Shown: in pieces, positions 713-62,696 of the stretch
How positions within the stretch are numbered: the first letter of the stretch is position 1
Layout: each line of letters begins with the position of its first letter
Origin: Ottowia sp. SB7-C50
Lineage (GTDB): Bacteria > Pseudomonadota > Gammaproteobacteria > Burkholderiales > Burkholderiaceae_C
Length of the DNA: 64,000 nt
Assembly (NCBI RefSeq): GCF_033110285.1
Contig: NZ_CP136995.1
Location: forward strand, 1,302,001-1,366,000
Reading direction: 5' to 3'
Made by a program: the position numbers and the translations under genes
Notes under the pieces: generated by a model
The model's database searches: none
What the model saw: only the letters and a program-made list of their open reading frames with translations
Told to the model about the DNA's origin: nothing

Positions 713-755
713 GATAGCTGCTCGCGCTTGTCAGTCAAGCGCAAGAGGCATTTTT
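713..755. repeat. Comamonadaceae-type palindromic repeat between ahpC and ahpF
   Basis: Contains the core AGCTGCTCGCGCTTG, a short spacer and CAAGCGC, followed by a T-rich edge. The two GCGCTTG/CAAGCGC arms can pair. The same core recurs at many places in the window (see 16908-16972, 28625-28675, 43455-43500, 47600-47650, 50655-50702). On the minus strand it lies immediately upstream of the ahpF ribosome binding site. Confidence 0.7.
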
Positions 756-881
756 GATCAATAAAAAACCGAACGGCAAGGCGCGCGCGCCCTGTCGCCG
801 TTCGGCTGGCATCCGGGGCGTGGCGTATCGACTGTCGGTCGAGGCATCCGTGGAGCGGGCTTGGCCCGACCACTGGATGCG

Positions 882-910
882 CCCCTCAAGGGGAGGCGAG
901 CAACGCTCGC
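882..910. repeat. Two adjacent small hairpins 3' of ahpC
   Basis: CCCCTCAAGGGG (882-893) and GCGAGC with GCTCGC around a 3-base loop (896-910) are both perfect inverted repeats just after the ahpC stop. Neither is followed by a T-run on the minus strand, so they look like mRNA-stabilising hairpins or pieces of a dispersed repeat rather than a full intrinsic terminator. A related CCCCTCGAGGGGG element is at 43664-43679. Confidence 0.4.
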
Positions 911-921
911 TTCGGGGTGGG

Positions 922-1491
922 TCAGATTTTTCCGACCAGGTCGATGGAAGGCTTCAGCGTCTTCTCGCCTTCTTTCCACTTGGCGGGGCAGACTTCGCCC
1001 GGGTGGGCCGCGGTGTACTGGGCGGCCTTCAGCTTGCGCACCGACTCTTTCACGTCACGGGCGATTTCGTTGGAATGCACTTCCATGGTCTTGATCGTGC
1101 CGCTAGGGTCGATGATGAAGGTGCCGCGCAGGGCCAGGCCTTCTTCGGCGATGTGCACGTCGAAGGCCTTGGTCAGCTGGTGCGTGGGGTCGCCCACCAG
1201 GAAGAACTTGGCCTTGCCCACGGCGGCCGACGTTTCGTGCCACACCTTGTGGCTGAAATGCGTGTCGGTGGTGACGATGTAGACCTCGGCGTTGGCCTTC
1301 TGGAACTCGGGGTAGTTGTCGGCCGCGTCTTCGATCTCGGTCGGGCAGTTGAAGGTGAAGGCGGCGGGCATGAAGATCACAACCGACCAGTGCTTGCCGT
1401 CGGAGAAGTTCTTCTCGGTCACTTCCTCAAACTTGCCGTTGTGGAAGGCCTGGGTCTTGAAGGGCTGGACCTTGGTGTTGATCAGGGACAT
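922..1491 (-). CDS. ahpC: Alkyl hydroperoxide reductase subunit C (2-Cys peroxiredoxin)
   Basis: Reduces H2O2, organic hydroperoxides and peroxynitrite in the cytoplasm and is recycled by AhpF. The 189 residues match the usual family length (about 187). The peroxidatic cysteine is C49 in FNCPTE and the resolving cysteine is C168 in EVCPAKW. The protein ends in the typical DLVGKI. ATG at 1491 follows AAGGAGAAC. An OxyR-type half operator and a TATAAT box lie 43-75 bases upstream, so peroxide induction is expected. ahpF follows on the same strand. Confidence 0.98.
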   Translation of the reverse strand: MSLINTKVQPFKTQAFHNGKFEEVTEKNFSDGKHWSVVIFMPAAFTFNCPTEIEDAADNYPEFQKANAEVYIVTTDTHFSHKVWHETSAAVGKAKFFLVGDPTHQLTKAFDVHIAEEGLALRGTFIIDPSGTIKTMEVHSNEIARDVKESVRKLKAAQYTAAHPGEVCPAKWKEGEKTLKPSIDLVGKI

Positions 1492-1533
1492 GCTTGTTCT
1501 CCTTGGTTGATGAAAGATCGATGGAATGGGTGA

Positions 1534-1566: not shown

Positions 1567-1727
1567 TTTTGGCTAATCTATCTTTAGCCGGCGTCTATGG
1601 CGGGCCGCAGACGCCCCGGCATGGACCGCGCCGCAGGTCAGCGAGCGGCCTGCCAACCCATCAGCCTACACCAAACGGGCGTCGGCTGTCCGCCCCCAAC
1701 GGGTGCTCGGCGCCTGCTGCAGGGCGT

Positions 1728-1785: not shown

Positions 1786-4698
1786 TCAGTGCGGCGCGCT
1801 GGCCTGTTCGGCTTCGAACGCCAGGGTGACCTGGCGCAGGTCCTTGCGGGTTTCGACCAGCACCAGCGGGCCTTCGTCCAGCTCCACCAGCGGCGGGCGC
1901 TCGCGCGGCACGTGGATGGGGCGCGGCTCGGCGGCGATGGCGGCCTGCACACTGGCGACCTTGTCGGCGTCGGAATTGACCCATTGCAGGCCGGCCGACG
2001 TCGCCAGGGCGTCCAGTTCGCCCAGCGGCAGCGCGAACGATGTCACGCGCGGCATGCCGCGCGGCGCCGGGCTGGCGGCCGGGGCGGGTGACACGGCGGC
2101 GGCAGGTGCTTCCAAAGGCATAGCTGCCGGCGCTGCAGGGGCGGGCGCTGGGGCGGGTTTTTCCTCTGAAATGATCGGCGCGGCGGGTGCGACAGACGCG
2201 ATAGGCGCGGCAGAACCGGCGGACGCGGCGGCGGCCTCTGCGCTGCGCGCAAAGTACGACCGCGGCGCGCTGTCGTCCGTCTCAGCCGGGGCGGCCTTGG
2301 CAACCACCGTGCCGTCGGCCGACACGCTGCCCGGCAGCTCGGCGGGGCGCTCGTCGCGGCGGTCGCGCCGGTCGCGGCCGTAGCGGTCGCGCGAGCGGCG
2401 TTCGCGCCGCTCCTCGCCGGGCTGGCCGTCGCCTGGGGCGTCGTGCGTCGGCGCGCCTTCGGGCAGCGCGGCGGCATTCAGCGCGGTCGCGGCCAGTTCG
2501 TCCTGCGGCTGGCCTTCGGCGCGTTCGGTGCGCTCGCCCCGCTCGCGGCGGCCTTCGCCACCCCGGCCACGGCGGCCTTCGCCCCGCTCGCTGCGTTCAC
2601 CGCGCGGCGGGCGGGCGTCGGCCACGGCCATGTCGGTCGCGGCGGATTCGCCCGACGACAAGGCGGCGGCGTCTTGCGGCGCTGCGTCGCGGCGGTCGCG
2701 CGGGCCCTGGCGGTCGCCACGTGGGCCACGGTCGCTGCGTTCACCGTTGCGGCGGCTGCCGTCGCGTTGGCCGCCGCGCGATTCGCCCTGGCCGTCGGCC
2801 CGGCGCTCGTCGCTGCCACGGCCTTCGCCGCGTTGGCCACCGCGGCCGCCTCGTCCGCCACGGCGTTCACCGTCGCGGCCTTCACGCTTTTCGCTGGCCG
2901 GTGCCGCGGCAGGCGTCGGCGCCGGTGCGGGCGCCACCACGGGCGCGGGCGGTGGCGACATGCCGAACAGGTTCTTCAGCCAGCCCATCAGGCCGGCAGG
3001 TGCGGCCACGGGCGCGGCCGGGGCGGGCACAGGCACCGCCACGGGCGCGGCGGCCACCGGCTCGGCCTTGGGCTTCGGCTCGATGGCGGGCGCCGGCGTG
3101 TCGCGCAGCACGCCCTTGATGACGGGCTGCTGCTTGTTGGTCGGCTCCTGGCTGCGGCGGGTGACGGTGGTCGGGTCCTCGAACTCCTCGGCCATCTTGT
3201 AGCTGGCGTCGATGTCGTCCAGGCGCGGGTCGTCGTGCTTCAGGCGCTCCAGCTTGTAGTGCGGCGTTTCCAGCGTCTTGTTGGGCACCAGGGTGACGTT
3301 GACGCGCTGCTTGAGCTCGATCTTGGCGATCTCGGGGCGCTTTTCGTTCAGCAGGAACGAGGCCACTTCCACCGGCACCTGCACGTTGACGGCGGCGGTG
3401 TTGTCCTTCATCGATTCTTCTTGAATGATGCGCAGGATCTGCAGCGCCGATGATTCCGTGTCGCGCACGTGGCCGGAGCCGCCGCAGCGCGGGCAGGGGA
3501 TGGAGGCGCCTTCGCTCAGGGCGGGCTTCAGGCGCTGGCGGCTCATCTCCAGCAGGCCGAACTTGCTGATGCTGCCGAACTGCACGCGGGCGCGGTCCTG
3601 CCGCAGCGCTTCGCGCAGGCGGTTTTCGACCTCGCGGCGGTTCTTGGCCTCTTCCATGTCGATGAAGTCGATCACGATCAGGCCGCCCAGGTCGCGCAGG
3701 TGCATCTGGCGCGCCACTTCGTCGGCGGCTTCCAGGTTGGTGCGGGTGGCGGTCTCCTCGATGTCGCCGCCCTTGATGGCGCGGGCCGAGTTGACGTCGA
3801 TGGCGACGAGCGCTTCGGCGTGGTCGATGACGATGGCGCCGCCGGAGGGCAGCGTCACGGTGCGGCTGTAGGCGCTTTCGATCTGGTGCTCGATCTGGAA
3901 GCGGCTGAACAGCGGCGCGTTGTCGCGGTAGCGCTTGACGCGCGATGCCTGCTCGGGCATCACGTGGCTCATGAACTGGTGCGCCTGCTCGTACACGTCG
4001 TCGGTGTCGATCAGGATGTCGCCAATGTCGCTGTTGAAGTAGTCGCGGATGGCGCGGATGACCAGGTTGCTTTCCTGGTAGATCAGGAAGGCGCCCTTGC
4101 TGGCCTTGGCGGCGCCATCGATGGCGTCCCACAGCTTCAGCAGGTAGTTCAGGTCCCACTGCAGTTCGGGCGCGCTGCGCCCGATGCCGGCGGTGCGGGC
4201 GATGATGCTCATCCCTTTCGGGTATTCGAGCTGGTCCATCGCCTCTTTCAGCTCGGCGCGGTCCTCGCCCTCGATGCGGCGGCTGACGCCACCGCCGCGC
4301 GGGTTGTTGGGCATCAGCACCACGTAGCGGCCGGCCAGGCTGACGAAGGTGGTCAGCGCCGCGCCCTTGTTGCCGCGCTCTTCCTTCTCGACCTGGACGA
4401 GAAGCTCCTGGCCTTCCTTGATGACGTCATTGATTCGCGCCTGGCTGACCGACACGCCTTCGGCAAAGTACTGGCGCGAGATTTCCTTGAACGGCAGAAA
4501 GCCGTGGCGCTCTTCGCCGTAGTCGACAAAGCAGGCTTCCAGCGACGGCTCGACGCGCGTCACCACCGCCTTGTAGATGTTGCCCTTGCGCTGTTCGCGC
4601 CCTTCGATCTCGATCTCGTAATCGAGCAGTTTCTGTCCATCGACGATCGCCAGGCGGCGTTCTTCGGCCTGCGTGGCGTTGATCAGCATCCGTTTCAT
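1786..4698 (-). CDS. rne: Ribonuclease E
   Basis: Essential endoribonuclease for mRNA decay and rRNA/tRNA processing; scaffold of the degradosome at the inner membrane. The 970 residues show the order of the family: MKRMLIN start, S1 domain about residues 36-120, the RNase H and DNase I-like catalytic core to about 400, and the Zn-link CPRCGGSG near residue 404. After about residue 530 comes a long disordered tail with Arg/Gly/Glu-rich stretches and Ala/Pro-rich segments, the RNA- and partner-binding half. The tail is low complexity and its DNA (near 2110-2180) may hold a degenerate copy of the dispersed palindrome. It is divergent from rluC, as in E. coli, with a long structured leader and an intrinsic terminator. 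Confidence 0.97.
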
Positions 4699-7385: not shown

Positions 7386-7461
7386 CGGCCGGGCCGGTCA
7401 CCCCTGTCACATTCACGCGCCAGAATCGCCCCTGCCGCCCGAACTGATTGCAAAGATTGCT

Positions 7462-10058: not shown

Positions 10059-10610
10059 ATGAGCAAGACCTTTGACGCACGGCGGCTGGACGTGGCGGCA
10101 TTCGCGCGTCTGCACGGGCATCTGGCGGGCACCGATTCGCTGCAAAAATATGAGCGCCTGGCGCAAGAGCTGCAAGCGCCAGCGGCCAATTTGACCGTGA
10201 ACTGGCAAGCCGACGGCGGCGAGCGTAAGGCCATCGACGGCAGCCTGCGCCCGGCGATCCACCTGCGCGCCGACGCCAGCTTGCCGCTGACCTGCCAGCG
10301 CTGCATGGGCGAGGTGGAGACGCCCGTCACCGTCGACCGGCACTTCGTGTTCGTCGACGACGAGGACCGCGCCAGCGCGCTGGACGACGAGTCTGACGAC
10401 GACGTGCTGGTGGCCGCGCCCGACTTCAACCTGCACGCGCTGATCGAGGACGAACTGCTGATGGCGCTGCCGCTGGTGCCGCGGCACGATGCCTGCCCTG
10501 CCGACGTCCGGTTGAGCGCGCAGAGCGCCGACTTCGACGCCCCGCAGGTCGACAAGGTCAACCCGTTCGCGGCGCTGGCGGCGCTGAAGGACAAGCCCAA
10601 GGGCGGTTGA
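10059..10610 (+). CDS. yceD: YceD / DUF177 protein (large rRNA accumulation protein)
   Basis: 183-residue YceD-family protein, linked to 23S rRNA accumulation and almost always encoded just before rpmF. The family core LTCQRCMGEVETPV with its CxxC pair lies near residue 80, followed by an acidic stretch (DDEDRASALDDESDDD) and a C-terminal PFAALAALK motif typical of the family. The segment around bases 10140-10195 resembles a coding copy of the dispersed palindromic repeat (GCGCAAGAGCTGCAAGCGCC). Confidence 0.92.
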   Translation: MSKTFDARRLDVAAFARLHGHLAGTDSLQKYERLAQELQAPAANLTVNWQADGGERKAIDGSLRPAIHLRADASLPLTCQRCMGEVETPVTVDRHFVFVDDEDRASALDDESDDDVLVAAPDFNLHALIEDELLMALPLVPRHDACPADVRLSAQSADFDAPQVDKVNPFAALAALKDKPKGG

Positions 10611-12228: not shown

Positions 12229-13209
12229 ATGAGCAAACGCTTTTCCCGCATCACCGGCACCGGCAGCTACCTGCCGCCGCGCCGCGTGACCAACGCCGAT
12301 CTGGCGGCCGAGCTGGCCACGCGGGGCATCGAAACCTCGGACGAATGGATCGTCGAGCGCACCGGCATCCGGGCGCGCCACTTTGCCGCGCCCGACGTGC
12401 CGGCCAGCGAGCTGGCCGTGCCGGCCGCGCGCGCCGCGCTGCAGGCTGCCGGACTGCAGCCGTCCGACATCGACCTGATCATCGTCGCCACGTCCACGCC
12501 GGACATGGTGTTTCCGTCCACCGCCGCCATCGTGCAGCACAAGCTGGGCATGGCTGGCTGCCCGGTGTTCGACGTGCAGGCCGTGTGCAGCGGCTTCGTC
12601 TACGCGCTGACGGTGGCCGACGCGCTGATCGCCAATGGCACGGCGCGCCGCGCGCTGGTGATCGGCGCCGAAGTGTTCAGCCGCATCCTCGACTGGAGCG
12701 ACCGCACCACCTGCGTGCTGTTTGGCGACGGCGCGGGTGCCGTGGTGCTGGAAGCCAGCGACACCCCCGGCATCCTGGCCACCGACCTGCACGCCGACGG
12801 CAAGTACGTCGACATCCTGTGCGTGCCGGGCCACGTATCGGGCGGCCAGGTGCTGGGCGATCCGGTGCTCAAGATGGACGGCCAGGCCGTGTTCAAGCTG
12901 GCCGTGGGCGTGCTCGACAAGGCGGCGCGCGCCGTGCTGGCCAAGGCCGGCAAGCAGGAATCCGACATCGACTGGCTCATCCCGCACCAGGCCAACCTGC
13001 GCATCATGATGGGCACGGCCAAGAAGCTGCACCTGCCGGTCGACAAGGTCATCGTCACCGTGCAGGACCACGGCAATACCTCGGCCGCGTCGATTCCGCT
13101 GGCGCTGGACCACGGCGTGCGCAGCGGCAAGATCCAGCCCGGGCAGACGCTGCTGCTCGAAGGTGTGGGCGGCGGCTTCACCTGGGGTGCGGTGCTTCTG
13201 AATCTGTAG
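12229..13209 (+). CDS. fabH: 3-oxoacyl-ACP synthase III (KASIII)
   Basis: Condenses acetyl-CoA with malonyl-ACP to start fatty-acid synthesis. With the ATG at 12229 the catalytic triad reads C120 (AVCSGF), H253 (IPHQAN) and N283 (HGNTSAA). An upstream in-frame ATG at 12211 exists but lacks a ribosome binding site, whereas AGAG precedes 12229. 326 residues matches the family. It lies 32 bases after plsX and 63 bases before fabD. Confidence 0.97.
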
Positions 13210-13250
13210 CTGTAGCGCGTTGATGCGCAAGCGCTGACGCCTGTTTTTAA
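13206..13250. repeat. Palindromic repeat copy between fabH and fabD
   Basis: GTAGCTGTAGCGCGTTGATG followed by CGCAAGCGC and a GTTTTTAA edge; a degenerate member of the dispersed palindrome family. It overlaps the last codon of fabH. Confidence 0.5.
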
Positions 13251-13272
13251 TCATTCTTTCGAGTCGAGTGCC

Positions 13273-14223
13273 ATGAAACCCATCGCCTTCGTATTTCCGG
13301 GCCAGGGATCGCAATCCGTGGGCATGCTGGACGCCTGGGGTGACCACCCGGCCGTGCGCGACACCCTGCAGGAGGCGTCCGACGCGCTGGGCGAGGACAT
13401 CGGCGCGCTGATTGCGGGCGGCCCCAAGGAAGACCTGGCGCTGACCACCAACACCCAGCCGGTGATGCTGGTGGCGGGCGTGGCGGCCTGGCGCGCCTGG
13501 CGCGCCGAGGGCGGGGCGCTGCCGGCGGCCGTGGCCGGCCATTCGCTGGGCGAATATTCGGCGCTGGTCGCCTCGGGCGCGCTGGCGCTGGCCGACGCGG
13601 TGCCGCTGGTGCGCCTGCGCGCCCGCGCCATGCAGGAGGCCGTGCCCGTCGGCACCGGCGCCATGGCCGCCATCCTGGGGCTGGATGCTGCAAAAGTGAT
13701 AGCTGGCTGCGAAGAAGTGACGGGCGCCATGGGCGCAAATGGCACTGAAGTGGTCGAAGCCGTCAACTTCAACGACCCGGTGCAGACGGTGATCGCCGGC
13801 ACCAAGGCGGCGGTCGACAAGGCCTGCGAAGTGCTCAAGGGCATGGGTGCCAAGCGCGCGCTGCCGCTGCCGGTGTCGGCGCCGTTCCATTCCAGCCTGA
13901 TGAAGCCCGCCGCCGAACGCCTGAAGGCCGCGCTGGCCGACGTCGCTTTCGCCACGCCCCAGATTCCGGTGGTCAACAACATCGACGTCGCCATCGAGGA
14001 CGAGGCCGACCGCATCCGCGACGCGCTGTATCGCCAGGCCTTCGGCCCGGTGCGCTGGGTCGAATGCGTGCGCAAGATCAAGGCCATGGGCCTGCCCACC
14101 TTGGTCGAATGCGGCCCGGGCAAGGTGCTGGCCGGCATGACCAAGCGCATCGACGCCGAACTGACCGGCCTGGCGATGTACGACCCGGCCACGCTGGCCG
14201 AGGTCAAGGCGCAGGTGAGCTGA
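13273..14223 (+). CDS. fabD: Malonyl-CoA:ACP transacylase
   Basis: Loads malonate onto acyl carrier protein. N-terminal FVFPGQGSQ; nucleophile S91 in GHSLGEYS; catalytic H206 in APFHSS; C-terminal PTLVECGPGKVL. 316 residues. The stretch around residues 138-158 (AAKVIAGCEEVTGAMGANG), encoded by bases 13685-13750, resembles a translated copy of the dispersed repeat (TGATAGCTGGCTGCG and GGGCGCAAATGGC) and sits between conserved blocks without breaking the frame. Confidence 0.97.
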   Translation: MKPIAFVFPGQGSQSVGMLDAWGDHPAVRDTLQEASDALGEDIGALIAGGPKEDLALTTNTQPVMLVAGVAAWRAWRAEGGALPAAVAGHSLGEYSALVASGALALADAVPLVRLRARAMQEAVPVGTGAMAAILGLDAAKVIAGCEEVTGAMGANGTEVVEAVNFNDPVQTVIAGTKAAVDKACEVLKGMGAKRALPLPVSAPFHSSLMKPAAERLKAALADVAFATPQIPVVNNIDVAIEDEADRIRDALYRQAFGPVRWVECVRKIKAMGLPTLVECGPGKVLAGMTKRIDAELTGLAMYDPATLAEVKAQVS

Positions 14224-16806: not shown

Positions 16807-17298
16807 TTGCCTGACGCGCCTGCCGTCAAGTACCCCGTCGGGCGTTCTGCCGCGCTGGGCATGGCGTTGATCGCTCTGGGTGCACTCGGCTGGACGGCTG
16901 CTTTCCTGATGCTTTTTTGGCCCTCAGCGCGCGCTGGTCAAGCGCTGATAGCTTCTGTATTGATAGCATCCTGCGTGGTCGCCAGTGCGGCGCTGGGCTG
17001 GTTCTGGCGGCGGCAGATCGGCCGCGAGTTGCGCTGGGACGGCGAATGCTGGTGGCTGGGCGTGCCCGGGCAGCCGCTGGAGCAGGGCGGCGACGATGCG
17101 CGCTTGCAGGTCCGGCTGGACGCCCAGCGCTGGATGCTGCTGTGGTTCACGGCGCCGGGCGAGCCGCGCGGCACATGGCTGTGGGCGCAGGCTTCGGCCG
17201 ACCCGGCGCGCTGGCACCTGCTGCGCTGTGCGCTATATTTGCCGCAGTCATCGACGGACCGCGCCCGACTGCGCGACGCCGATGCCGAACGCGCCTGA
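16807..17298 (+). CDS. Small two-helix membrane protein between fabF and rpoE
   Basis: 163 residues from a TTG at 16807 preceded by GGAGTAATCG. Two membrane segments lie near residues 15-38 and 44-65, followed by a Trp-rich cytoplasmic-type region (LRWDGECWWLGV, RWMLLWFTAPG). Proteins with this two-helix plus Trp-rich layout and position are known in betaproteobacteria and recall the YgfX/CptA fold, but I would not assign that name. The second helix and its loop are encoded by a clear copy of the dispersed palindrome (16908-16972). Confidence 0.7.
   Translation: MPDAPAVKYPVGRSAALGMALIALGALGWTAAFLMLFWPSARAGQALIASVLIASCVVASAALGWFWRRQIGRELRWDGECWWLGVPGQPLEQGGDDARLQVRLDAQRWMLLWFTAPGEPRGTWLWAQASADPARWHLLRCALYLPQSSTDRARLRDADAERA
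16908..16972. repeat. Palindromic repeat inside the coding region of the membrane protein
   Basis: On the minus strand the order is CTATCAATACAG, AGCTATCAGCGCTTG, CAGCGCGCGCTG, then a GGCCAAAAAAG edge, matching the family order A-rich edge, AGCT, GCGCTTG arm, GCGC arm, T-rich edge. It is translated in frame as part of a membrane helix (ARAGQALIASVLIAS). Confidence 0.6.
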
Positions 17299-27864: not shown

Positions 27865-28623
27865 ATGAACCCGACTCACCTTTCGGTCAACGTCAACAAG
27901 GTTGCGCTGGTGCGCAACACCCGCCACCTGGGCATTCCCAGCGTCGTGCGCGCAGCCGAAGCCTGCCTGCAGGCCGGTGCGCACGGCATCACCGTACACC
28001 CGCGCCCCGACCAGCGCCACGTCCGCCCGCAGGACGTGCACGACCTGGCCGCGCTGATGCGCCGCTGGCCCGGCCGCGAATACAACATCGAAGGCAACCC
28101 GACGCAGAACCTGATGGCCTTCATCCGCGACGTGCGCCCCGCGCAGGCCACCTTCGTGCCCGACGCCGAAGACCAATTCACCAGCGACCACGGCTGGGAC
28201 CTGGCCAGCCCCGGCGTGGCCGAGCGCCTGCGTCCGCTGATCGACGAGTGCCGCCAACTGGGCGTCCGCGTCAGCCTGTTCATGGACGCCGAGCCGCACG
28301 CCATGGCCGCCGCCCGCGCCCTGGGCGCCGACCGCGTCGAGCTGTACACCGAGCCCTGGGCCGCCGCCTGGGGCACGCCCGATGAAGCCGTGCAACTGCA
28401 GCGCTTCGCCGCCGCCGCCCGCGCCGCGCAGGGCGCCGGCCTGGGCGTCAACGCCGGCCACGATCTGAACCGAGACAACCTCACGCCCTTTCTGCGCGGC
28501 GTGCCGGGCGTTGCCGAAGTCAGCATTGGCCACGCGTTGATCGCCGACGCGCTGGACATGGGTTACGACGCCACCGTGCGCGACTACCTGCGCTGCATCG
28601 ACGAGGCGTTCGATTGCTCCTGA
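27865..28623 (+). CDS. pdxJ: Pyridoxine 5'-phosphate synthase
   Basis: Makes pyridoxine 5'-phosphate from deoxyxylulose 5-phosphate and aminoacetone 3-phosphate. The start ATG at 27865, with AAAGGA upstream, gives LSVNVNKVALVRNTRH; family motifs GITVHPRPDQRHV and NAGHDLNRDNL are intact. 252 residues. The recO-pdxJ-acpS order is conserved in proteobacteria. Confidence 0.97.
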   Translation: MNPTHLSVNVNKVALVRNTRHLGIPSVVRAAEACLQAGAHGITVHPRPDQRHVRPQDVHDLAALMRRWPGREYNIEGNPTQNLMAFIRDVRPAQATFVPDAEDQFTSDHGWDLASPGVAERLRPLIDECRQLGVRVSLFMDAEPHAMAAARALGADRVELYTEPWAAAWGTPDEAVQLQRFAAAARAAQGAGLGVNAGHDLNRDNLTPFLRGVPGVAEVSIGHALIADALDMGYDATVRDYLRCIDEAFDCS

Positions 28624-28624
28624 A

Positions 28625-28675
28625 TTGATAGCTGCTTGCGGTTTATGGACAAGCGCCAGCGGCTGATTTGGCTTG
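28625..28675. repeat. Palindromic repeat between pdxJ and acpS
   Basis: TTGATAGCTGCTTGCG, a short spacer, then CAAGCGCC and a GATTTGG edge; one of the clearest copies of the family. It fills nearly the whole 59-base gap. Confidence 0.75.
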
Positions 28676-28682
28676 ACATCCC

Positions 28683-31310: not shown

Positions 31311-31334
31311 CGCGCAACATACATTTTTGATAGC

Positions 31335-31372
31335 GCCCGCCGCAGTCCTGACAAGGGCTGGCGGGCTTTTTT
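31335..31372 (+). terminator. Intrinsic terminator after the nagZ operon
   Basis: 7 bp stem GCCCGCC/GGCGGGC around an 18-base loop, followed by six T. It starts 25 bases after the preceding stop. The TTTTTGATAGCGC just before it resembles one edge of the dispersed palindrome, so the terminator may have evolved from a repeat copy. Bases 31373-31601 then hold no gene. Confidence 0.82.
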
Positions 31373-31601
31373 ATTGTCATTGGCGGCCGCCGGGGCGCGC
31401 TAAGGCGACGTTGAATGCGTCCGCGTGAGTGCTGGCGATGTGGTTTGGGATGGGCTGCAAGGCGCACGCCGCAGACCGCGCCAATGCACCGATGCCAGCG
31501 CCGCGCGGGGGCTTGTTCAGCGTTGCCCTAAGATGTGGACCGCTCTGCGCGGCACGCCATCGTCGTTGTGCAGGGTCTGATAACAGACGGAGACAAAGAC
31601 C

Positions 31602-37871: not shown

Positions 37872-40496
37872 TCAGCGCGGCAGCAATGCCTTGAGCTGAT
37901 ACAACGCGTCCAGCGCCTCACGCGGGCTCAGCGCGTCGGGGTCGATGCCGGCCAGCGCCGACTCGACCGCGCTGGGCTCGGGTGCGGCAGCGGCGGCGGG
38001 CGCTGGCGCGAACAGGTCGGCCTGCGCGCGGCTCTGGCTGGCGCCTTCTTCCAGCCGCGCCAGCGCGTGCCGCGCGTGGTTGACGACCGGCGCGGGCACG
38101 CCTGCCAGCCGCGCCACCTGGATGCCGTAGCTGCGGCTGGCCGGGCCGGGCTGCAGCTCGTGCAGAAACACGATGTCGCGCCCGCTTTCGACGGCGCTGA
38201 CGTGCACGTTGATGGCGGCGTGGTGGGTGGCGGGGAATTCGGTCAGCTCGAAATAGTGCGTGGCAAACAGCGCCAGGCACTGCAGGCGGTCATGCAGGTG
38301 CATGGCGATCCCGCTGGCCAGCGCCAGGCCGTCGAACGTGCTGGTGCCGCGGCCGATCTCATCCATCAGCACCAGCGACTGCGCGGTGGCGGTGTGCAGG
38401 ATCTGCGCCGCCTCGGTCATCTCCAGCATGAAGGTGGACTGCGCGTTGGCCAAGTCGTCGGCGGCGCCGATGCGGGTGTGGATGGCGTCCAGCGGCCCCA
38501 GCCGGCAGCTTTGCGCCGGCACGTACGAGCCGACGGAGGCCAGCAGCGCGATCAGCGCCACCTGGCGCATGTAGGTACTCTTGCCGCCCATGTTGGGGCC
38601 GGTGATGACCTGCATGCGGCTTTTGGGGCCCAGCAGCGTGTCGTTGGCGATGAAGGGCACGCCGCGCGTTTCGGCCAGGCGCGCCTCGACCACGGGGTGG
38701 CGGCCGCCGATGATCTCGATGCAGGGCTCGCGCACGAACTGCGGCGCGCACCAGTTCAGCGTCAGCGACCGCTCGGCCAGCGCGCACAGCGCGTCCAGCG
38801 CGGCGATGGCCTGGGCAAAGCGCGTCAGCCGCGGCACATGCGGCTGCAACTGGGCCAGCAGGTGGTCGTACAGCCATTTTTCGCGCGCCAGCGCGCGTTC
38901 CTGCGCGGACAGGGCCTTGTCCTCGAAGGCCTTCAGCTCGGGCGTGATGTAGCGCTCGGCGTTCTTCAGCGTCTGGCGGCGGCGGTAGTCGTCGGGCACC
39001 TTGGAGGCCTGGCCCTGCGTGACCTCGATGTAGAAGCCGTGCACCTTGTTGAACTGCACGCGCAGGTTGGCGATGCCGGTGCGGGCGCGCTCGCGCGCTT
39101 CCAGGTCGATCAGGAAGGCGTCGCAGTTGTCCTGGATGGCGCGCAGCTCGTCCAGTTCGGCGTCCAGCCCCGGGGCGATGACCCCGCCGTCGCGGATCAG
39201 CGCGCCGGGCTCTTCCTGCAGCGCAGCGCACAGCAGGTCCAGCGCTTCGTCGGGCGGCGCCAGGTCGCTGAAAATATCCATCAAAAGCGGCGCCTGCGCT
39301 TGCCCTGTCAGCGTGCGCAGCTCTGTTTTTTGTAGTGAATGGCGCAGTGCCACCAGCTCGCGCGGCCGCACCTGGCCCAGCGCCAGGCGGGCGGTGATGC
39401 GCTCGACATCGCTGGTGCCCTTGAGTTGCGTGCGCAGCTTCTGCCCCAGGCCGTCGTCGCGCAGCGCGCCAATGGCGTGCAGCCGCGCCTGCGCGGGCGC
39501 CCGGTCGCGTGCCGGCGACAGCAGCCAGCTTTTCAGCCGGCGGCTGCCCATGCCGGTCATGCAGGTGTCCAGCAGCGAAAACAGCGTGGGCGCATCCTCC
39601 CCGCGCAGGGTCTGCACCAGTTCCAGGTTGCGGCGCGTGGTGGCGGGCAGGTCAATCAGTTCGTCGGCGCGCTCGACCACCAGGCCGCTGACGTGCGTCA
39701 GCGCCCGGCCCTGCGTGTGTTCGGCATAGGTCAGCAGCGCGGCGGCGGCGGCGTGGGCGAGCGGCACGTCTTCGGCCGCCCAGGCGGCCAGGCTCGCGGC
39801 CTGCAGTGGCTCCAGCAGCTTGCGGCGGCCCAGCGCGGCGTCGAACTGGAAGTCGGGCCGATGGGTGAGGGCCGGCGCGCGGCCCGCGGCGGGGCGCGCA
39901 TCGCGCAGGCGCTGCTCCAGCGCGGGCGTGGTGTCGGCGGGCAGCAGCAGTTCGCTGGGCGCGATGCGGTCCAGCCACGCGGGCAGTTCGTCCAGCGCGC
40001 ATTCGGCCAGGTGCACCTGCCCCTGCGTCACCGCCAGCCAGGCCAGCCCGCAGCGGTTGCGCGGCGCCGGGTACACGGCCAGCAGCATCGATTCGTGCTT
40101 GTCCGAGAGCAGTTCGCTGTCCGTCAGCGTGCCGGGCGTGACCACGCGCACCACCTTGCGCTCGACCGGGCCCTTGGACGCGGCAGGGTCGCCGATCTGT
40201 TCGCAGATGGCGACCGACTCGCCCAGCTTGATCAGCCGCGACAGGTAGCCGTCGACCGAATGAAAGGGCACGCCCGCCATCGGAATCGGCTGCCCGGCCG
40301 ATTGCCCGCGCGTCGTCAGCGTGATGTCCAGCAGGCCGGCGGCGCGCTCGGCGTCGGCGTAGAACATCTCGTAGAAATCACCCATGCGGTAGAACAGCAG
40401 GGTGTCGGGGAAGTCGGCCTTCAGGCGCAGGTATTGCGCCATCATGGGCGTGTGCCCCGACAGGTCGGCAGCGGAGGGGGTTTTGAGGCCGGTCAT
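37872..40496 (-). CDS. mutS: DNA mismatch repair protein MutS
   Basis: Recognises mismatches and recruits MutL. 874 residues from the ATG at 40496: mismatch-recognition domain with the [11 protein letters not shown] motif (wedging Phe and Glu), connector, lever, and ATPase with Walker [10 protein letters not shown] at about 633-641 and Walker [17 protein letters not shown]. The segment [18 protein letters not shown] (bases 39268-39345) in the lever domain is encoded by a copy of the dispersed palindrome. ATGA overlap with the upstream membrane-protein gene. Confidence 0.97.
39268..39345. repeat. Palindromic repeat copy inside mutS
   Basis: On the minus strand the order is CACTACAAAAAACAG, AGCTGCGC, CAAGCGCAGGCGCCGCTTTT, matching the family order of A-rich edge, AGCTGC, AAGCGC arm and T-rich edge. 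It is in frame and adds roughly 20 residues to the lever region. Confidence 0.6.
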
Positions 40497-42664: not shown

Positions 42665-42694
42665 GCGGCGCCAGCGCCTCTCGATGGCATACAA

Positions 42695-42750
42695 ATCGGC
42701 TTCTGGCGCACGCCCACACTGCGCCAGACGCTATCAAAATGATGGCAACC
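42695..42750. repeat. Palindromic repeat in the greB upstream region
   Basis: TACAAATCGGCTTCTGGCGC, CTGCGCCAGACGCTATCAAA: an inverted arrangement of the family edges (TACAAATC and GCTATCAAAATG) around TCTGGCGC/GCGCCAGA arms. It lies in the divergent promoter region between the FUSC gene and greB. Confidence 0.55.
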
Positions 42751-43445: not shown

Positions 43446-43694
43446 GGTTGCTGCTAATTTTATAGCTGCTTGCGCTGATGGAATAAGCGCCGGGGCCGTA
43501 AAAGCCGTGTATCTCCCGTCAGTGCAGCGAAGGCCGGAATGACGGGAAAAAAGGACGCGTCGAAATCAGAAACCCCTGAGCTGCGCAGCAAGCCCTTTCA
43601 GCCGGCCGCGGAGCAGGCCAGTCGGGAACGCCGCCGCCGGGGTCCCCCCGGTGGCCAGCGTTGTCCCCCTCGAGGGGGAAGGCGCGTCAGCGCC
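43446..43694. repeat. Repeat-filled region between greB and spoT
   Basis: No gene is seen in these 249 bases. They contain a clean copy of the AGCTGCTTGCGC / AAGCGCC palindrome (about 43455-43490), half of a GTCATTCC-type palindrome (43529-43546, read as GGAATGACGG), and a GTCCCCCTCGAGGGGGA palindrome (43662-43680) followed by GGCGCGTCAGCGCC. Several dispersed repeat families pile up between the two convergent genes. Confidence 0.7.
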
Positions 43695-46956: not shown

Positions 46957-47586
46957 TTAGTCTTGGCGCAGCACCAGCAGCAGATTGTTGGCCGGCAGCG
47001 CGTGGCGCGCGGCCAGGCGCAGACCGGCGGTTTCGGCGGTGCGCAGCACGTCCTCCAGCGGGCGCAGGCCCCACGCCGGGTCGCGGCGTTTCAGGTCGGC
47101 GTCGAAGGCCAGGTTGCTGGGCGCGGTGGGCACATCGGCTTCGATGAACGGCCCGTAGACGGCCAGCAGGCCGCCCGGCGCCAGATGGTGCGCGGCCCCG
47201 CGCATCAGTCCGGCGCAGCAGGCCCAGGGGCTGATGTGCAGCAGATTGGCGCAGTGGATGAGGTCGAACGCGGCAGCTTCGAAGGCCGGGCCGCCGTCGC
47301 TGGGCCAGGGCGGCGCATCCAGCACGTCCAGCCGGCGCGGGGGCGCCACGTTGGCAGCGCCGGCCTGCAGGGCCCGCGTGGCGATGGCGGCGAAATGCGC
47401 ATCGGTCACGTCGGTGGGCTGCCAATGCCAATTGGGCAAGGCGCCGGCGAAATGCACCGCATGTTGCCCCGTGCCGCTGGCGATTTCGAGCGCGCGGCCC
47501 CTCGGGCCCAGCAGGCCTTGCAGTACGGCAAGAATGGAGGCCTGGTTGCGTTCTGCGGCGGGGCTGTAGGGCAGGGGCGTGGTCAT
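46957..47586 (-). CDS. DUF938 SAM-dependent methyltransferase
   Basis: 209 residues; class I methyltransferase fold with ALEIASGTGQHAVHFA as SAM site, DLIHCANLLHISPW and a C-terminal NNLLLVLRQD. This matches the DUF938 family, of unknown substrate. It is upstream of gmk on the same strand with a 61-base gap. ATG at 47586. Confidence 0.88.
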   Translation of the reverse strand: MTTPLPYSPAAERNQASILAVLQGLLGPRGRALEIASGTGQHAVHFAGALPNWHWQPTDVTDAHFAAIATRALQAGAANVAPPRRLDVLDAPPWPSDGGPAFEAAAFDLIHCANLLHISPWACCAGLMRGAAHHLAPGGLLAVYGPFIEADVPTAPSNLAFDADLKRRDPAWGLRPLEDVLRTAETAGLRLAARHALPANNLLLVLRQD

Positions 47587-47599
47587 GGGTGTGGGTATT

Positions 47600-47650
47600 T
47601 TTGGGCGCAGCGCTTGTCAATCAAGCGCCTGTAGCTACCAATAGCATAGC
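47600..47650. repeat. Palindromic repeat upstream of the DUF938 gene
   Basis: GCGCAGCGCTTGTCAATC, AAGCGCCTGTAGCTACCAAT: GCGCTTG and CAAGCGC arms with AGCTAC and A-rich edge. It fills the gap between two minus-strand genes. Confidence 0.7.
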
Positions 47651-47651
47651 G

Positions 47652-47957
47652 TCATGGGCAGCCCGTTGCGGCGCCATCGCCCGCCGCCGGTGCGCATCTC
47701 CGCGTGGGCGCCTGCGCCGTGTCGGCGGGCCGGATGCGCTCGCGCACCACGATGCCGCTGGTGTCGGCCGGGCGTGCGGGACTCATGGCGTCAATGCCCG
47801 CGCCAATGGCCTTGCCCGTGAGGCCAACGCCGGTGGACACCACGGCGCCGGTGACCGAGATCGCCGCGCCGGCGGTGGCGCTGGCCACGGCGCAGCCTTC
47901 GGCCAGCAGGGCCGCCAGCAAGGCCACGGCGCCGGCGGTGGCGCGCGACGCCCTCAT
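47652..47957 (-). CDS. Small hypothetical lipoprotein
   Basis: 101 residues with a signal peptide and lipobox LAEGC (Cys22), then a hydrophobic Gly/Ala/Val/Thr-rich segment ([20 protein letters not shown]) and a disordered tail. The start overlaps the stop of the flavin-dependent oxidoreductase gene (ATGA). Not recognised beyond its lipoprotein nature; outer-membrane anchoring is inferred. Confidence 0.7.
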
Positions 47958-50654: not shown

Positions 50655-50702
50655 GGCTGCTCTGCGCTTGCCGTGATGTGATGGCGCAGAGTGCTATAAA
50701 AA
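50655..50702. repeat. Palindromic repeat between the M14-like and AhpD-like genes
   Basis: GGCTGCTCTGCGCTTGCC, then GGCGCAGAGTGCTATAAAAA: CTGCGC/GCGCAG arms with GCTATAAAAA edge. It is immediately upstream of the next ATG. Confidence 0.65.
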
Positions 50703-52123: not shown

Positions 52124-52302
52124 GGGCTGACGCTTCACCCTCCCACCGGGCCAGCGTGACCGTCAAGGTTAAATGTGGACCGTGCGCTTGTCCCAACTGG
52201 CTCTGTTGCTATCAAAACAGGATTGATGGCGGCGAAGGCGCCGCCCGCTTGGCGCCGCCGTCCGACAGACGTGCGCACGGCGGCGGGCCATGATGTCGCC
52301 CG

Positions 52303-56192: not shown

Positions 56193-56980
56193 GGGGGGGC
56201 AGCGGCGGCGACGCGGCGGAACACCAGGTCCCACACGCCGTGGCCCAGCCGCAGGCCGCGGCGCTCGAACTTCGTTTCGGGGCGGTAGGCGGGGCGCGGC
56301 GCGAAGTCGGGCGCGGTGTTGGCCAGCAGCGGCTCGGCGCCCAGCACCTGCAGCATCTGCCCGGCGTAGGGCTGCCAGTCGGTGGCGCAATGCAGGTAGC
56401 CGCCGGGCTTCAGTCGCCGCGCCAGTTCATGCACCAGCGGCGGCTGGATCAGGCGGCGCTTGTGGTGGCGCTTCTTGTGCCAGGGATCGGGGAAGAAGAT
56501 GTGGATGCCGTCCAGCGAATCGGGCGCGATCATGTGCGCCAGCACCTGCACCGCGTCGTGCTGCACGATGCGGATGTTGTGCAACTGCTGCTCGCCGATC
56601 AGCTTGAGCAGCGCGCCCACGCCGGGCTCATGCACCTCGCAGCCAATGAACAGCGTGTCGGGCATCAACGCGGCGATGTGCGCCGTGGCGCCACCCATGC
56701 CGAAGCCGATCTCGAGCACGGCCTTTGAATGAATCGGGCCGCCAGCGCCGTCTGCGCGCAGGCAGGCAGCTACCAAATCAGGAGTATCCGGGTCGTACGG
56801 CAGTACGAAGCGCGGCCCCAGGTCGGCCAGCGCGCGCGCCTGGCCCAGCGTGGTGCGACCGGCGCGCGTGACAAAGGTGCGGATGGCGCGCGGGTGCGCC
56901 ACGCCGGCGGGTGCGGCGTCGGCAATCGCGGAGGGGGCTTCAGTCGGGTCGTCGTCCGACCGGTCGACGGACGCGGTCAC
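56165..56980 (-). CDS. trmB: tRNA (guanine-N7)-methyltransferase
   Basis: Makes m7G46 in tRNA. 271 residues; SAM site [14 protein letters not shown], substrate motif [16 protein letters not shown] and [10 protein letters not shown]. The N-terminal 45 residues are a variable extension. Bases 56758-56785, encoding [12 protein letters not shown], resemble half of the dispersed palindrome (AGCTACCAAATCAGGAG). It ends in a run of seven G/C at 56193-56199, so its last ten or so residues could differ if that run is misread. Confidence 0.94.
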
Positions 56981-57939
56981 GGCTGGTGCGGCGGCTCGGC
57001 GGCGGGCGTGGCAGCCGGCTCGGTGGGCGCGGCGGCGTCGCCGGCCCAGGCCTGGAAGGCGGCGTCGCTGGCGTCGGCGGGTTTTTTAAGCGAAACCACC
57101 TCGCGCCGCTCGTCTGAAGCGCGTACTGCGCTATCAAAACGAGAGTATTTGCGCAGAATGGCCACCAGCTGCGCATACACGCGCGGGTTGGCGGCCAGGC
57201 ACTCGGGCTGGTCGATGTGGCCGGCCTCGCCGGCAAAGTTGCCGATCAGGCCGCCGGCCTCGGTCACCAGCAGGCTGCCGGCGGCCACGTCCCAGGGCTT
57301 GAGGCCGGTTTCAAAAAAGCCGTCGGTGAAGCCCGCGGCGACGTAGGCCAGGTCGAGCGCGGCGGCGCCCGGGCGGCGCAGGCCGGCGGTGCGCTGCATC
57401 ACGTCGCCCATCATCTTGAGGTAGGTGGGGAAGTCGTCGCCCTTGCGGAACGGAAAGCCGGTGGCGATCAGGCATTCGGGCAGGTGCGTGCGCTTGCTGA
57501 CGCGGATGCGCCGGTCGTTGACGTAGGCGCCGCGACCGCGCGTGGCGGTGAACAGGTCGTTGCGCGTGGGGTCGTACACGACGGCCTGTTCGATGCGGCC
57601 CTTGACGCTGAGCGCGATGCTCACGCAATAGACCGGAAAGCCGTGGATGAAGTTGGTGGTGCCGTCCAGCGGGTCGATGATCCAGACGTGGTCTGAATGC
57701 GGGTTGCCGCGCGAAGTGCCCGACTCTTCGGCGTGGATGCCGTGCTGGGGGTAGGCGGTCAGCAGCGTGTCGATGATCGCGTTTTCGCTGGCGTGGTCGA
57801 CCTCGGTGACGAAGTCGTTGACCTGCTTCTGCGAGATGCGCACGGCCTCGACGTCGAGCGCGGCGCGGTTGATGATGGCGCCAGCGGCGCGCGCGGCCCG
57901 GATGGCCACGTTGAGCATGGGGTGCAGGGAGGACGACAT
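56977..57939 (-). CDS. suhB: Inositol monophosphatase family protein (SuhB)
   Basis: 320 residues. Metal-site motifs [14 protein letters not shown] and [10 protein letters not shown]. Besides phosphatase activity SuhB takes part in rRNA transcription complexes. The C-terminal 45 residues after YSRFDSAV are an extension rich in Ala/Pro; the DNA at 57115-57150 (GCGCGTACTGCGCTATCAAA) matches an edge of the dispersed repeat. ATGA overlap with trmB. Confidence 0.94.
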
Positions 57940-58555: not shown

Positions 58556-58558
58556 CCA

Positions 58559-59441: not shown

Positions 59442-59452
59442 GGCGCCGGTCC

Positions 59453-61495
59453 TTATTTCTGCACGATGTATTCGGGGCAGCACATCACCATCAGGATGGC
59501 GGCCCACACGCGGGTGTTCTTGCCGGCGTCGCTGCCGATGGCGATGCTGGCGATGGCGTCGCGGATGGTGCTGGTGGTGGCGCTGGACAGCTGCCCCGCC
59601 GCCAGCAGCAGGTTGAGCCGGTCGACCAGCGCCGCCGGGTTGGCCACCAGGGCCAGTTCGGCCGTGTAGCTGCTTACCCACAGCTTGCTGGTGCTGTTGC
59701 CGTACAGGCCGTAGGCGATGGTGTTCTGCATGAAATTGACGTAGCCGGCCACCGAGCTTTCGTTGGTGATCTGGAACTCTGGCGCCGGCTGCCCGGTGGC
59801 CGCCAGGGCCGTGCCCGGCGGCACGTAGCCAGGGCGGAAGAAGTTGAACACCGACGGACTGCGCAGCGGGCTTTGCGCCAGCGCGGTGGACGGGGTGGAC
59901 AGGTCATAGATGGTCCACGTGCCGTCGTTCGAGGTGGCGCCGAAGGTGCGCGCCCATTGCACGCAGCGGATCATCGGCTCGCGCAGCTTGCCCCAGCTGG
60001 GTGCCGACAGGCCCGCGGCGGCGCGCGCCTCGGGGTCGAGCAGCACCGCCTTGGTGACGGCGCGCAGGTCACCGCGCACGCCGGCGCCGTTGTTGGCAAA
60101 CGCGGCGGCCACGCGCGCAATGTAGGCCGGGCTGGGCGCGCTGGTCACCAGCCGCTGGATCAGCGCCCGTGCGATGAAAGGCCCGGTGTTGGGGTGGTTG
60201 TGCAGCGTGTCCAGCGCGGTCTTGAGCGCCTGCGCACCGGGCGTGCTGCCGGCCACCGTCACGCCCAGAAAGCTGGCGTCCTGCGTCGAATGCCGGGTGG
60301 CGTCCAGCACCATCGGGTTGCGATAGCGCAGCGGGTTGGTGGCGCGCACGTGGCCGGTGCTGTCCCAGTTGTAGCCGGTGAACACCCGCGCCAGCCCGGT
60401 CACGTCGGCCGGTCCATAGGTGTAGATCGGCTGGCCCGCCGCGTTGAGCTTGGCGCTGCCATCGGCATTGAGCTGCACCAGGCCGATGGAGAACAGCTGC
60501 ATCACTTCGCGCGCGTAGTTCTCGTCGGGGTGACGACCGGTGGCGGGGTCTTCCTTCAGGCTGCCGCGCATGTTCAGGTAGCTGCCCATGGCCGGGTTGA
60601 GCGTGACGGCCTCCAGCAACTGGCGGTAGTTGCCGAGCGCGTGGGTGTTCAGCACGTCCCAGTATGCGGCCATGGCGAACGAGGGCGATTCGCCGTCGAT
60701 GCCGACCCCCGACACCACCATGATCTCCGACCAGGCCAGCGCCAGCCGCTTGCGCAGCGCGTCGGGCGCGGTGATCAGCTGGTTCCAGACCATGTAGTTG
60801 GCGTATTCGCCGTTGAAGATCACGTCGACCCGGTTGTAGCCCTGGCCCATCAGCCAGTCCCAGCCGGTGCCGGCGATGGGCTGGTTCATCTGCGCGTCGA
60901 GCCACGCGCTGTAGCCCATGGTGCGAACGGACTCGATCTCGGCGTCGGTGGACGAAAACTGCGCCTGCTGCAGAAAGCGCGCGGCCTCGGCCGCGGTGAT
61001 GGGCGGGGGTGCTGGCGTGGGGGCCGGTGCGGGCGTGGGCGCTGGCGTAGCTGCAGGCGCAGGCGCAGGTGAAGGGGTGGGCGCGGGTGCGGGGGATGGC
61101 GCGGGGGATGGCGTCGGTGCCGGGACGGGTGAAGGCGTGGGCGCGGGCGCTGGTGTGGGCGCAGGGGACGGCGTGGGCGATGGCGTCGGGGCAGGCGCTG
61201 GCGAGGGCGTGGGGGTCGGGGTCGGCGCAGGCGTAGGCAGCGGGTCGAGCGTTGGCGTGGGCACAGGCGCCGTGTCCGCCGCTGGTGTCGGCACGGGTGA
61301 GGCCGGCGTGACGCCACTGCTGCCGCCGCCGCACGCGGCCAGCACGGCCGACATCAGCGCGGTCAGGCCGGTCAGCTCGGCGGTGCGGGCGGTGAACGGG
61401 CCGGCGGCGTCGGGCGCCAGCGTGTCGTCGGCGCGTTCGGGCAGCGCGGGGGCCGTTGCGGCGCCATCGGGCGCTGCGTCTTGGGTTTGCATCAT
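59453..61495 (-). CDS. DUF1800 protein
   Basis: 680 residues. An N-terminal hydrophobic segment and Cys ([18 protein letters not shown]) is followed by a long alternating Pro linker (about residues 65-165) and the DUF1800 domain ([51 protein letters not shown]). DUF1800 and DUF1501 are usually paired and exported; their job is unknown. ATG 61495 with AGGAG 8 bases upstream is the best start. Confidence 0.9.
61010..61262 (-). repeat. Degenerate short tandem repeat encoding a Pro-rich linker
   Basis: Repeating GGCGTGGGCGCGGGCG-type units, 6 bp based, read in the DUF1800 gene as [11 protein letters not shown] repeats. The stretch is likely to vary in length between strains by slippage. Confidence 0.75.
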
Positions 61496-61682
61496 CAAAA
61501 TCGCTCCTGCAGGCGGGTCCGGCAGCCGCGGCGCGGCTCGACGGTGATCGTGTCCGCGCGGTCATGTGCCAAACCCTGACCAGCGGGCGAACGGGTGCAA
61601 TTTCGATGCCAGACCCGCGCGCCGCGCGGGCGGTGGCGGTGACTGCGCACTAATGACTACAGGTTCGGCAAAAAATGCCGCT

Positions 61683-62696
61683 TCAGGGCGCGTCTGGCCG
61701 GCGCCAGTTGACAATCTGGCGCAGCCATTCGCGCACCGTGGGCGGCGCCTGGCTGTCGAGCACGAGCCGGCGCGGCATGCTGCGCAACCAGGTCAGCTGG
61801 CGCTTGGCCAGCTGGCGCGTGGCGGCGATGCCGCGCTCGCGCAGCGCGGCCATCTGAGGGGACGTCAGCGCATCGGCAGGCGCGGCCTCATCCAGCGCCG
61901 TCCATGCCTGGCGGTAGCCGACGCAGCGCATCGACGGCAGGTCGGGCGACAAGTCGCCCCGGGCGCGCAACGCCACGACTTCATCCAGAAACCCGTCGGC
62001 CAGCATGGCGTCAAAGCGCTGGGCGATGCGGTCGTGCAGCCAGCCGCGGTCCGCCGGCTCCAAAGAAAAAACGGGGATAGCGCTGGCCAGATCAGCGCTG
62101 GCAGCTCCTGATTTTGTAGTGTGAAAGCTCGACAGCGGCCGCCCGCTGATGTGCCACACCTCCAGCGCACGCTGAATGCGCTGGCTGTCGGCCGGTGCCA
62201 GGCGCGCGGCGGTGGCGGGGTCGACCCGCGCCAGTTCGGCGTGCAGCGCGGGCCAGCCCTGCTGCAGCGCCTGCGCCTCCAGCCGGGCGCGCACCGCCGG
62301 GTCGGCGGGCGGCAGTTCGTCCAGCCCTTCCAGCAGCGCCTTCAGGTAAAGCAGGGTGCCGCCCACCAGCAGCGGCAGGCGGCCGCGCGCGGTGATCTCG
62401 TCCATCAGCCGGCCGGCGTCGCGCGCGAAATCGGCTGCGCTGTAGGGGTGCAGCGGGTCGCGGATGTCGATCAGGTGGTGCGGCACGGCCGCGCGCTCGG
62501 CCGCGCTGGGCTTGGCGGTGCCGATGTCCATGCCGCGGTAGACCAGCGCCGAATCGACGCTGATGATCTCCAGCGGCACGGTGTCGGCCAGCTGCATGGC
62601 CAGCGCGGTCTTGCCGCCCGCCGTGGGCCCTGTCAGCACGACGGCGCGCACGGGCAGGCTGCGCGGATTCGGGTCAGCGGGCTGCGGGTTCGCCAT
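61683..62696 (-). CDS. miaA: tRNA dimethylallyltransferase
   Basis: Adds the isopentenyl group to A37 of tRNAs reading UNN codons. 337 residues; P-loop [10 protein letters not shown] near residues 23-32, [18 protein letters not shown], and RCVGYRQAW. Bases 62060-62130, encoding [15 protein letters not shown], carry a copy of the dispersed palindrome (CAGCGCTGAT and AGCGCTATCC with CTACAAAATCAGGAGCT and a TTTTTTC edge), inserted in frame. Its start overlaps the end of the MFS gene by 23 bases. Confidence 0.96.
62060..62130. repeat. Palindromic repeat copy inside miaA
   Basis: On the minus strand CACTACAAAATCAGGAGCTG, CCAGCGCTGATC, CCAGCGCTATCCCC and TTTTTTC follow the family order. In frame. 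Confidence 0.6.

Follow-up and report, generated by a model that had tools for sequence, protein, structure and literature searches.

A dispersed motif of about 60 bp in Ottowia sp. SB7-C50, a candidate DNA-recognition signal often spelled over protein code

How does one short repeat come to lie both between genes and, in frame, inside conserved proteins? The question is raised by a 64-kb stretch of the Ottowia sp. SB7-C50 chromosome (the window; G000:C1:1302001-1366000, from a genome, G000, of 3.61 Mb), in which the original prediction had recognised a palindromic repeat with the behaviour of Rickettsia palindromic elements (RPE). The repeat family is real. Comparison with homologous genes suggests that its coding copies were often spelled over pre-existing code by substitution, not inserted. 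Our tentative reading, held with somewhat less than even confidence, is that the element is a sequence-recognition motif on double-stranded DNA that may be kept by biased uptake, and not the relic of a palindromic transposon.

A repeat family between and inside genes

The element is about 61-68 nt long and, when oriented, reads TTGCTAC..AATTGATAGCTGC..GCGCTTGTC.G.CAAGCGCTGG.GGC..ATTTGAC....AAA. Its exact core 14-mer, ATAGCTGCNNGCGC, occurs 169 times in the genome (82 + 87 by strand), and the reversed control of ATAGCTGCNNGCGC has no occurrence on either strand of the same genome (0 + 0). The first 30 genomic places and three window copies were aligned to give a covariance model, R1, which was searched against the window and 20 evenly spaced stretches of 20 kb (464 kb). 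Matches of at least 20.7 bits were kept, opposite-strand matches at the same place were merged, and a partial 20.1-bit match (L041:2896) was left out. This retained 79 copies, with 41 intergenic, 29 in genes and 9 at gene edges as judged by an in-house codon-usage gene caller, and extrapolates to about 600 copies genome-wide. A 68-column matrix was built from 37 copies lying between genes or at gene edges. Its intergenic matches of at least 20 bits number 53, against a mean of 0.0 in 10 dinucleotide shuffles. Information is spread over ~60 bp (58.8 bits in intergenic copies, 45.1 bits in coding copies) and gathers in blocks near columns 5, 16, 27, 40, 54 and 65, roughly one per helical turn.

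The 381 genes contain 31 coding matches of at least 20 bits; when synonymous codons were shuffled 20 times within each gene, the mean was 0.55. The shuffles rule out that these matches are a by-product of amino-acid sequence; the coding copies are thus a property of the DNA and not of the proteins. Reading is open through the element and the copies lie in frame, with 32 coding matches distributed over sense frame 1 (12), antisense frame 0 (10), sense frame 0 (7) and others (3), so that 29 of the 32 use three of the six frames. The original prediction therefore holds in that a single family occupies both intergenic DNA and conserved genes with the frame kept, and in that its profile is enriched inside open reading frames over shuffled sequence. 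In the frame-0 copies inspected (the mutS rows and a consensus of seven), GAG stands at the position of the motif's stop codon TAG. The stop is avoided, which argues that these copies are not pasted intergenic ones. The A/T tract is also written differently, intergenic copies having TTT at positions 54-56 and coding copies in sense frame 1 having AAA at 53-55.

Insertion or substitution at the coding copies

RPE are elements of ~150 bp that are defined by inserting in frame (PMC10969869, in excerpt). The present family is like them as a repeat with open frames that lies in frame inside conserved proteins; it is unlike them in length and in that half of the comparable coding copies are without an element-sized insertion. 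Lengths were comparable at 12 coding copies. Six of these differ from motif-free homologues by at most a few residues, two by +7 to +11 and three by +13 to about +32, and one lies in a shared tail. The predicted likeness to RPE thus fails at 6 of the 12, and clean in-frame insertions, expected at mutS, fabD and miaA, were not seen there, the motif-free homologues having about the same length.

The FabD comparison covers 74 relatives, one row being empty at the site, and shows no 20-residue gap. The protein is as long as that of motif-free Variovorax, with near-identical residues, and 4-6 residues longer than more distant rows. Its (E/D)AAKVIAGC segment is written with AAG, ATC and GCC in motif-free Variovorax versus AAA, ATA and GCT here. 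At fabD, therefore, homologues carry the same residues without repeat-like DNA, a finding that the original prediction had named as evidence against itself; at mutS and miaA the agreement is one of segment length. MutS is one residue shorter than E. coli-type chains and shows no difference within the genus. The MiaA loop measures 81 nt in 14 of the 21 rows from the genus, three of the eight motif-poor ones among them, and 72 nt in three rows of other families; the copy thus adds nothing relative to three motif-poor species of the genus and three residues relative to other families, in a loop of variable length. Against solved homologues, KdsB differs by 0-1 residue within the element, YceH by +2 inside it, and acetoacetyl-CoA ligase by +1 inside it or +5 with flanks (best chain). 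The SuhB copy occupies a C-terminal tail that is also present in motif-poor species of the genus, and the TrmB copy sits before the aligned core, outside the length comparison.

MutS offers the closest view of how a copy may arise. It was searched within the genus, in genomes G000-G018. Of the 18 same-genus rows, 16 align colinearly at the motif site and share one length, the exceptions being G013, with an unrelated insert of ~10 residues, and G003, a fragment; the mutS of G018, interrupted at the site, stands outside the 18-row comparison. Scores against the matrix are high in G017 (65.1 bits), G014 (64.3), G016 (58.6), G011 (50.3), G008 (46.7), G000 (46.1), G010 (42.0) and G015 (41.9), lower in G005 (30.3), G002 (2.6), G012 (-7.0), G004 (-7.2), G007 (-12.4) and G001 (-24.1), and lowest in G013 (-32.5), G009 (-37.9) and G006 (-38.0). 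That colinear rows range from -38 to +65 bits indicates that the match changed by substitution in place. The scores track the number of exact copies in each genome: those above 40 bits belong to genomes with 81-500 copies, those below 3 bits to genomes with 2-8, and G005 has 38.

Conservation at the site follows the motif. In the eight motif-rich species, column conservation in mutS correlates with motif information (rho 0.557), being 0.955 at high-information positions, 0.718 at low-information positions and 0.887 in the rest of the gene; in seven motif-poor species the same columns give rho -0.003. The test excluded the MutS rows of G003 and G018, where the site is broken, that of G013, with its unrelated insert, and MiaA rows of other loop lengths; G005 was placed in neither class. 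Shared descent of the rich species may contribute to the mutS result.

The site is also disturbed in several genomes. The insert in G013 (L270) lies exactly where other species carry the motif. In G018 (C44:98453-100690), ~153 extra bases in a single open frame separate two matched parts at the motif site. In G003 the frame changes exactly at the motif copy both in mutS (C1:171556-174143) and in a gene for a ligase-associated Lhr-like helicase (C1:3383393-3386205), whether by assembly error or in reality.

Two rival origins of the coding copies are to be weighed here. If intergenic copies overwrote partly similar sequence by non-allelic gene conversion, replacement would be length-neutral, as the high-scoring mutS copies of G014 and G017 (64-65 bits) are, and many DNA uptake sequences (DUS) of Neisseria have been argued to arise by recombination and not by point mutation (PMC2397512, in part). 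Such conversion is very unlikely here, given the GAG in place of the motif's TAG in frame-0 copies, the intermediate scores, and matching positions at mutS and miaA that differ from species to species. A mobile palindrome of the RPE kind, or of the kind of miniature inverted-repeat transposable elements (MITE), would insert anywhere, survive where the frame was kept and later decay. High-scoring intergenic copies and the use of three reading frames fit it, as do the longer proteins described below. We regard it as unlikely, since it is contradicted at six of the 12 coding copies compared (no element-sized insertion in MutS, FabD, MiaA, KdsB, acetoacetyl-CoA ligase or YceH), copies occupy orthologous sites in several genera, and the mutS match is retained between species at 18-19% protein divergence.

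Several observations weigh against the reading favoured here. Three insertions are clear and two partial, so not every coding copy is a rewrite: LigB is longer by about +32 residues, the Lhr-like helicase, encoded just outside the window, by +13 to +16 and about +23 to +26 at its two copies, Cca by +7 to +11 and PurL by +11. Since the Lhr rows without inserts belong to a distant paralogue or to two other families, the Lhr inserts may be older linkers. The MiaA loop spans 72 to 111 nt in motif-poor species, and the correlation of information with conservation at miaA has the same direction as at mutS without being significant (rho 0.186, p 0.13). Coding scores are bimodal, with 30 of 35 matches above 8 bits exceeding 25, which gradual evolution does not obviously predict. 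Third-position identity in the Lhr-like gene falls below the rest of the gene at both copies in the pairs G000-G011, G010-G011 and G011-G003, and at copy 1 in G000-G003, where G003 is frame-broken; it lies above the rest of the gene in G000-G010, G000-G014 and copy 2 of G000-G003, and this mixed result was not used as support. The base of the genus is unresolved in the MutS tree, which leaves rich or poor as the ancestral state unpolarised.

Position, structure and spread of the copies

Of the 50 copies that are intergenic or at gene edges, spacer analysis placed 49. Their density is 1.49 per kb in convergent spacers (13 copies), 0.77 in codirectional (33) and 0.24 in divergent ones (3). Codirectional spacers hold sense and antisense copies at 16:17, and 22 of the 33 copies there start within 63 nt of the upstream stop. 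At fabH the relation is closer still: its stop codon is the TAG of the motif's ATAGCTG, and the left end of the motif covers the last fabH codons. The fabH stop reads TAGCT in 14 of 71 other loci compared, including Acidovorax, Comamonas, Rhodoferax and Xylophilus. A replichore strand bias, apparent in the 20 sampled stretches, was rejected with the 150 places listed from across the genome, among which 49 of 200 label shuffles reach the observed value; nor is there clustering among these places (spacing CV 1.08). One sampled stretch, L045 (G000:C1:2620001-2640000), combines strong GC skew (-0.137) with zero motif copies; L033, L034 and L039 are also without copies, and L033 and L034 are poor in genes of typical codon usage.

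The description as palindromic was only partly apt. In an RNAalifold consensus of 33 sequences only the two GCGC blocks pair, and none of the 4 pairs covaries. The right half does not repeat the left. Intergenic or edge copies fold with a mean z of -1.56 (n=49), coding copies more weakly, at -0.47 (n=26). Rfam gave no match in the window or in eight copy loci. A structured RNA or terminator was rejected on these grounds (no covarying helix, no strand preference, no Rfam match).

Repetitive extragenic palindromic (REP) sequences, bacterial interspersed mosaic elements (BIME) and MITE-type repeats are short imperfect palindromes in many copies, often just after stop codons, and are extragenic or insertional. 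The present element is likewise a short imperfect palindrome in many copies often soon after stops; it differs in that it is common inside genes, its arms show no covariation and no transposase fits it. Movement as REP sequences by a REP-associated Y1 transposase (RAYT) appears highly improbable. The genome does have one Y1_Tnp (PF01797) match with a motif copy in its locus, and G014, with the most exact copies (500), also has the most such matches (20), with copies in the one locus examined. Elsewhere copy number is not consistently related to these matches (G011, 482 copies and one match; G005, 38 and none; G001, 4 and five), and at one copy per ~6 kb a copy in a ~3 kb locus is unremarkable.

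Among 299 genomes of the family, counts of the exact 14-mer range from 0 to 500 per genome, with some species of the same genus at background level; the 16 genomes drawn from the order's other families have it at control level. At the fabH-fabD locus, R1 matches (E <=0.01) are present in 15 of the 80 loci compared across the family and were not found in the Variovorax, Roseateles, Ideonella and Azonexus loci compared. Phage records gave 0 matching entries and plasmid records four. One, the Diaphorobacter plasmid NZ_CP049911.1 (L288), carries a 91%-identity copy overlapping the annotated end of cobN. Another, the Klebsiella oxytoca plasmid NZ_KY913898.1, has a 41-base match (85%, E 1e-3; L287:1501-1541) at the start of a DUF1010 open reading frame in a class 1 integron, which may be chance or a cassette from this bacterial family. 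DUF1010 as a translated motif copy was rejected, none of eight open reading frames over copies matching DUF1010.

With the matrix, 14 of the 16 sites listed in the original prediction score 33.3-84.7 bits, against maxima of -16.7 to -3.5 bits in 20 dinucleotide shuffles of the window (which may run up to 2% short); those at 50655 (-13.2) and in era at 25643 (-15.6) fail. Matches of at least 8 bits beyond that list are those at 31316 and 52159 (Table 1) and one at 7410 on the minus strand (9.0 bits). R1 agrees for most sites, the exceptions being 13192 (E 0.05), a partial match at 16916, and era (E 1.5). The frame holding the 16902 site was not called by the gene caller. A second dispersed repeat is centred around TGCGCGGGAATGACG: its 12-mer CGCGGGAATGAC occurs 10 times on both strands of the 464 kb (the window and L031-L050), against 0.08 expected.

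Table 1. Motif copies in the 64-kb window, scored with the 68-column matrix and, where given, the covariance model R1. Copies in the matrix training set are so marked.
Positions	Strand	Location	Matrix (bits)	R1 (bits)	Remarks
700..767	+	intergenic	84.7	66.2	best in window; training set
2106..2173	+	C-terminal part of rne (1786-4689 -)	36.5	42.8	coding, antisense; gene name from original prediction
10137..10204	+	yceD (10059-10610 +)	33.6	22.7 (partial)	coding; YceD by NCBIfam below its cut-off
13192..13259	+	fabH stop codon and fabH-fabD spacer	34.0	14.7	
13685..13752	+	fabD	33.3		coding; residues ancestral, codons match motif, no insertion; name from original prediction
16902..16969	-	open frame 16807-17298 (putative gene)	37.0	18.2 (partial)	
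28614..28681	+	pdxJ 3' end and following spacer	72.9		training set
31316..31383	+	between called genes	40.9	18.9	absent from original list
39271..39338	-	mutS (37872-40496 -)	46.1		coding, sense frame 0, length-neutral
42681..42748	-	intergenic	36.7		
43448..43515	+	intergenic	60.4		training set
47585..47652	-	intergenic	34.0		
52159..52226	-		17.7		weak copy
56720..56787	-	trmB, N-terminal	34.7		coding; ahead of conserved methyltransferase core
57081..57148	-	suhB, C-terminal tail	36.2		coding
62055..62122	-	variable loop of miaA	45.2		coding; name from original prediction

Recognition of DNA and a candidate uptake signal

Neither an RNA helix nor a transposase fits the element well, which points to recognition of double-stranded DNA by a protein. 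An intracellular DNA-binding protein, serving chromosome organisation, replication or recombination, or transcription termination with no link to uptake, would suit a constraint at the DNA level without strand preference, the enrichment in convergent spacers and blocks at roughly helical spacing, and the patchy presence of the motif within the genus could track that of the protein. We consider it somewhat unlikely, as the 150 places listed show neither replichore polarity nor clustering, and hundreds of sites of ~60 bp over-specify an ordinary binding site.

We favour, tentatively, a signal for DNA uptake. Transformation by type IV pili would prefer fragments bearing the motif, which the receptor would contact at the GCGC blocks and at the A/T tracts, placed some 10-14 bp from one another; biased uptake and recombination of such fragments would then draw near-matches toward the motif and maintain matches, as with Neisseria DUS and the uptake signal sequences (USS) of Pasteurellaceae. 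To our knowledge, uptake signals are the systems whose copies sit within conserved code and are retained there; DUS also favour genome-maintenance genes. DUS and USS likewise occur in hundreds of copies on both strands, between and inside genes, and their copies arise without insertion, a trait that the coding copies here share in part (six of the 12 compared). In the parts of PMC2397512 available, DUS occupy permissive places of the core genome and yet are highly conserved, a combination seen here at mutS only, and DUS pairs occur in terminators, as the present motif is enriched where genes converge. Within the family, PMC4212676 (seen in part) describes DNA uptake via type IV pili in Verminephrobacter eiseniae, for which its authors suggest sequence specificity, and transformation in two of four Acidovorax (A. 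temperans and A. facilis did, A. defluvii and A. delafieldii did not); no Acidovorax tested was transformed with DNA of another Acidovorax species. ComEC was found in 20 and DprA in 21 of the 21 same-genus genomes searched, and both are in this genome.

Other points tell against uptake. ComEC and DprA are equally present in motif-poor species and so do not discriminate. The density, ~1 per 6 kb (79 in 464 kb), is below that of Neisseria DUS, about 1 per 1.1-1.5 kb (PMC2397512, in part), and, at ~60 bp, the motif greatly exceeds the 9-11 bp given for uptake sequences (PMC4212676, in part). DNA repair and maintenance genes make up 9 of the 32 carriers (AddA, AddB-like, MutS, MutL, UvrA, the Lhr-like helicase, LigB, LigD and XseA), against 4/30 (p 0.13) or 4/60 (p 0.007) controls, an enrichment that is only suggestive, the naming being unequal and the carriers clustered. 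NCBIfam named 28 of the 32 carriers, some below the curated cut-off, and mutS, miaA, rne and fabD were named by alignment or from the original prediction; naming of the controls used E 1e-10 for the first 30 and 1e-60 to 1e-25 for the second 30, a set that may therefore miss names (60 of the 64 drawn were scanned). The long motif, its low density and competence genes that do not separate rich from poor species keep our preference modest. The element differs from DUS and USS, too, in having two GCGC blocks with A/T tracts in place of a 9-11 bp core and in occurring in Comamonadaceae.

With a little less confidence again, we propose that Comamonadaceae may possess a self-recognition system for transformation apart from those of Neisseriaceae and Pasteurellaceae, with a signal of ~60 bp that would overwrite conserved protein code by substitution, be held by selection and, in place of protein function, shape many protein segments of a motif-rich genome (~200, extrapolated from the 29 coding copies in 464 kb). 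The literal string ATAGCTGCTTGCGC did not occur in the literature searched, nor did the texts retrieved, partly as excerpts, on Acidovorax and Burkholderiales uptake sequences and on Comamonadaceae palindromic repeats describe the motif (subscription journals and preprints lay outside the scope of these searches); in the portion available of one Comamonadaceae paper, 'palindromic repeat' refers to CRISPR. Uptake specificity has been suggested for Verminephrobacter and Acidovorax with no signal named in the parts of the source available, and the motif is a concrete candidate. If the motif is the signal, an uptake system with a much longer recognition sequence would exist beyond the two classical families, and the contrast of motif-rich with motif-poor species inside one genus would help in the hunt for the receptor. 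Whatever the function, conserved proteins appear to be reshaped here by selection at the DNA level, a point that bears on how amino-acid conservation is read.

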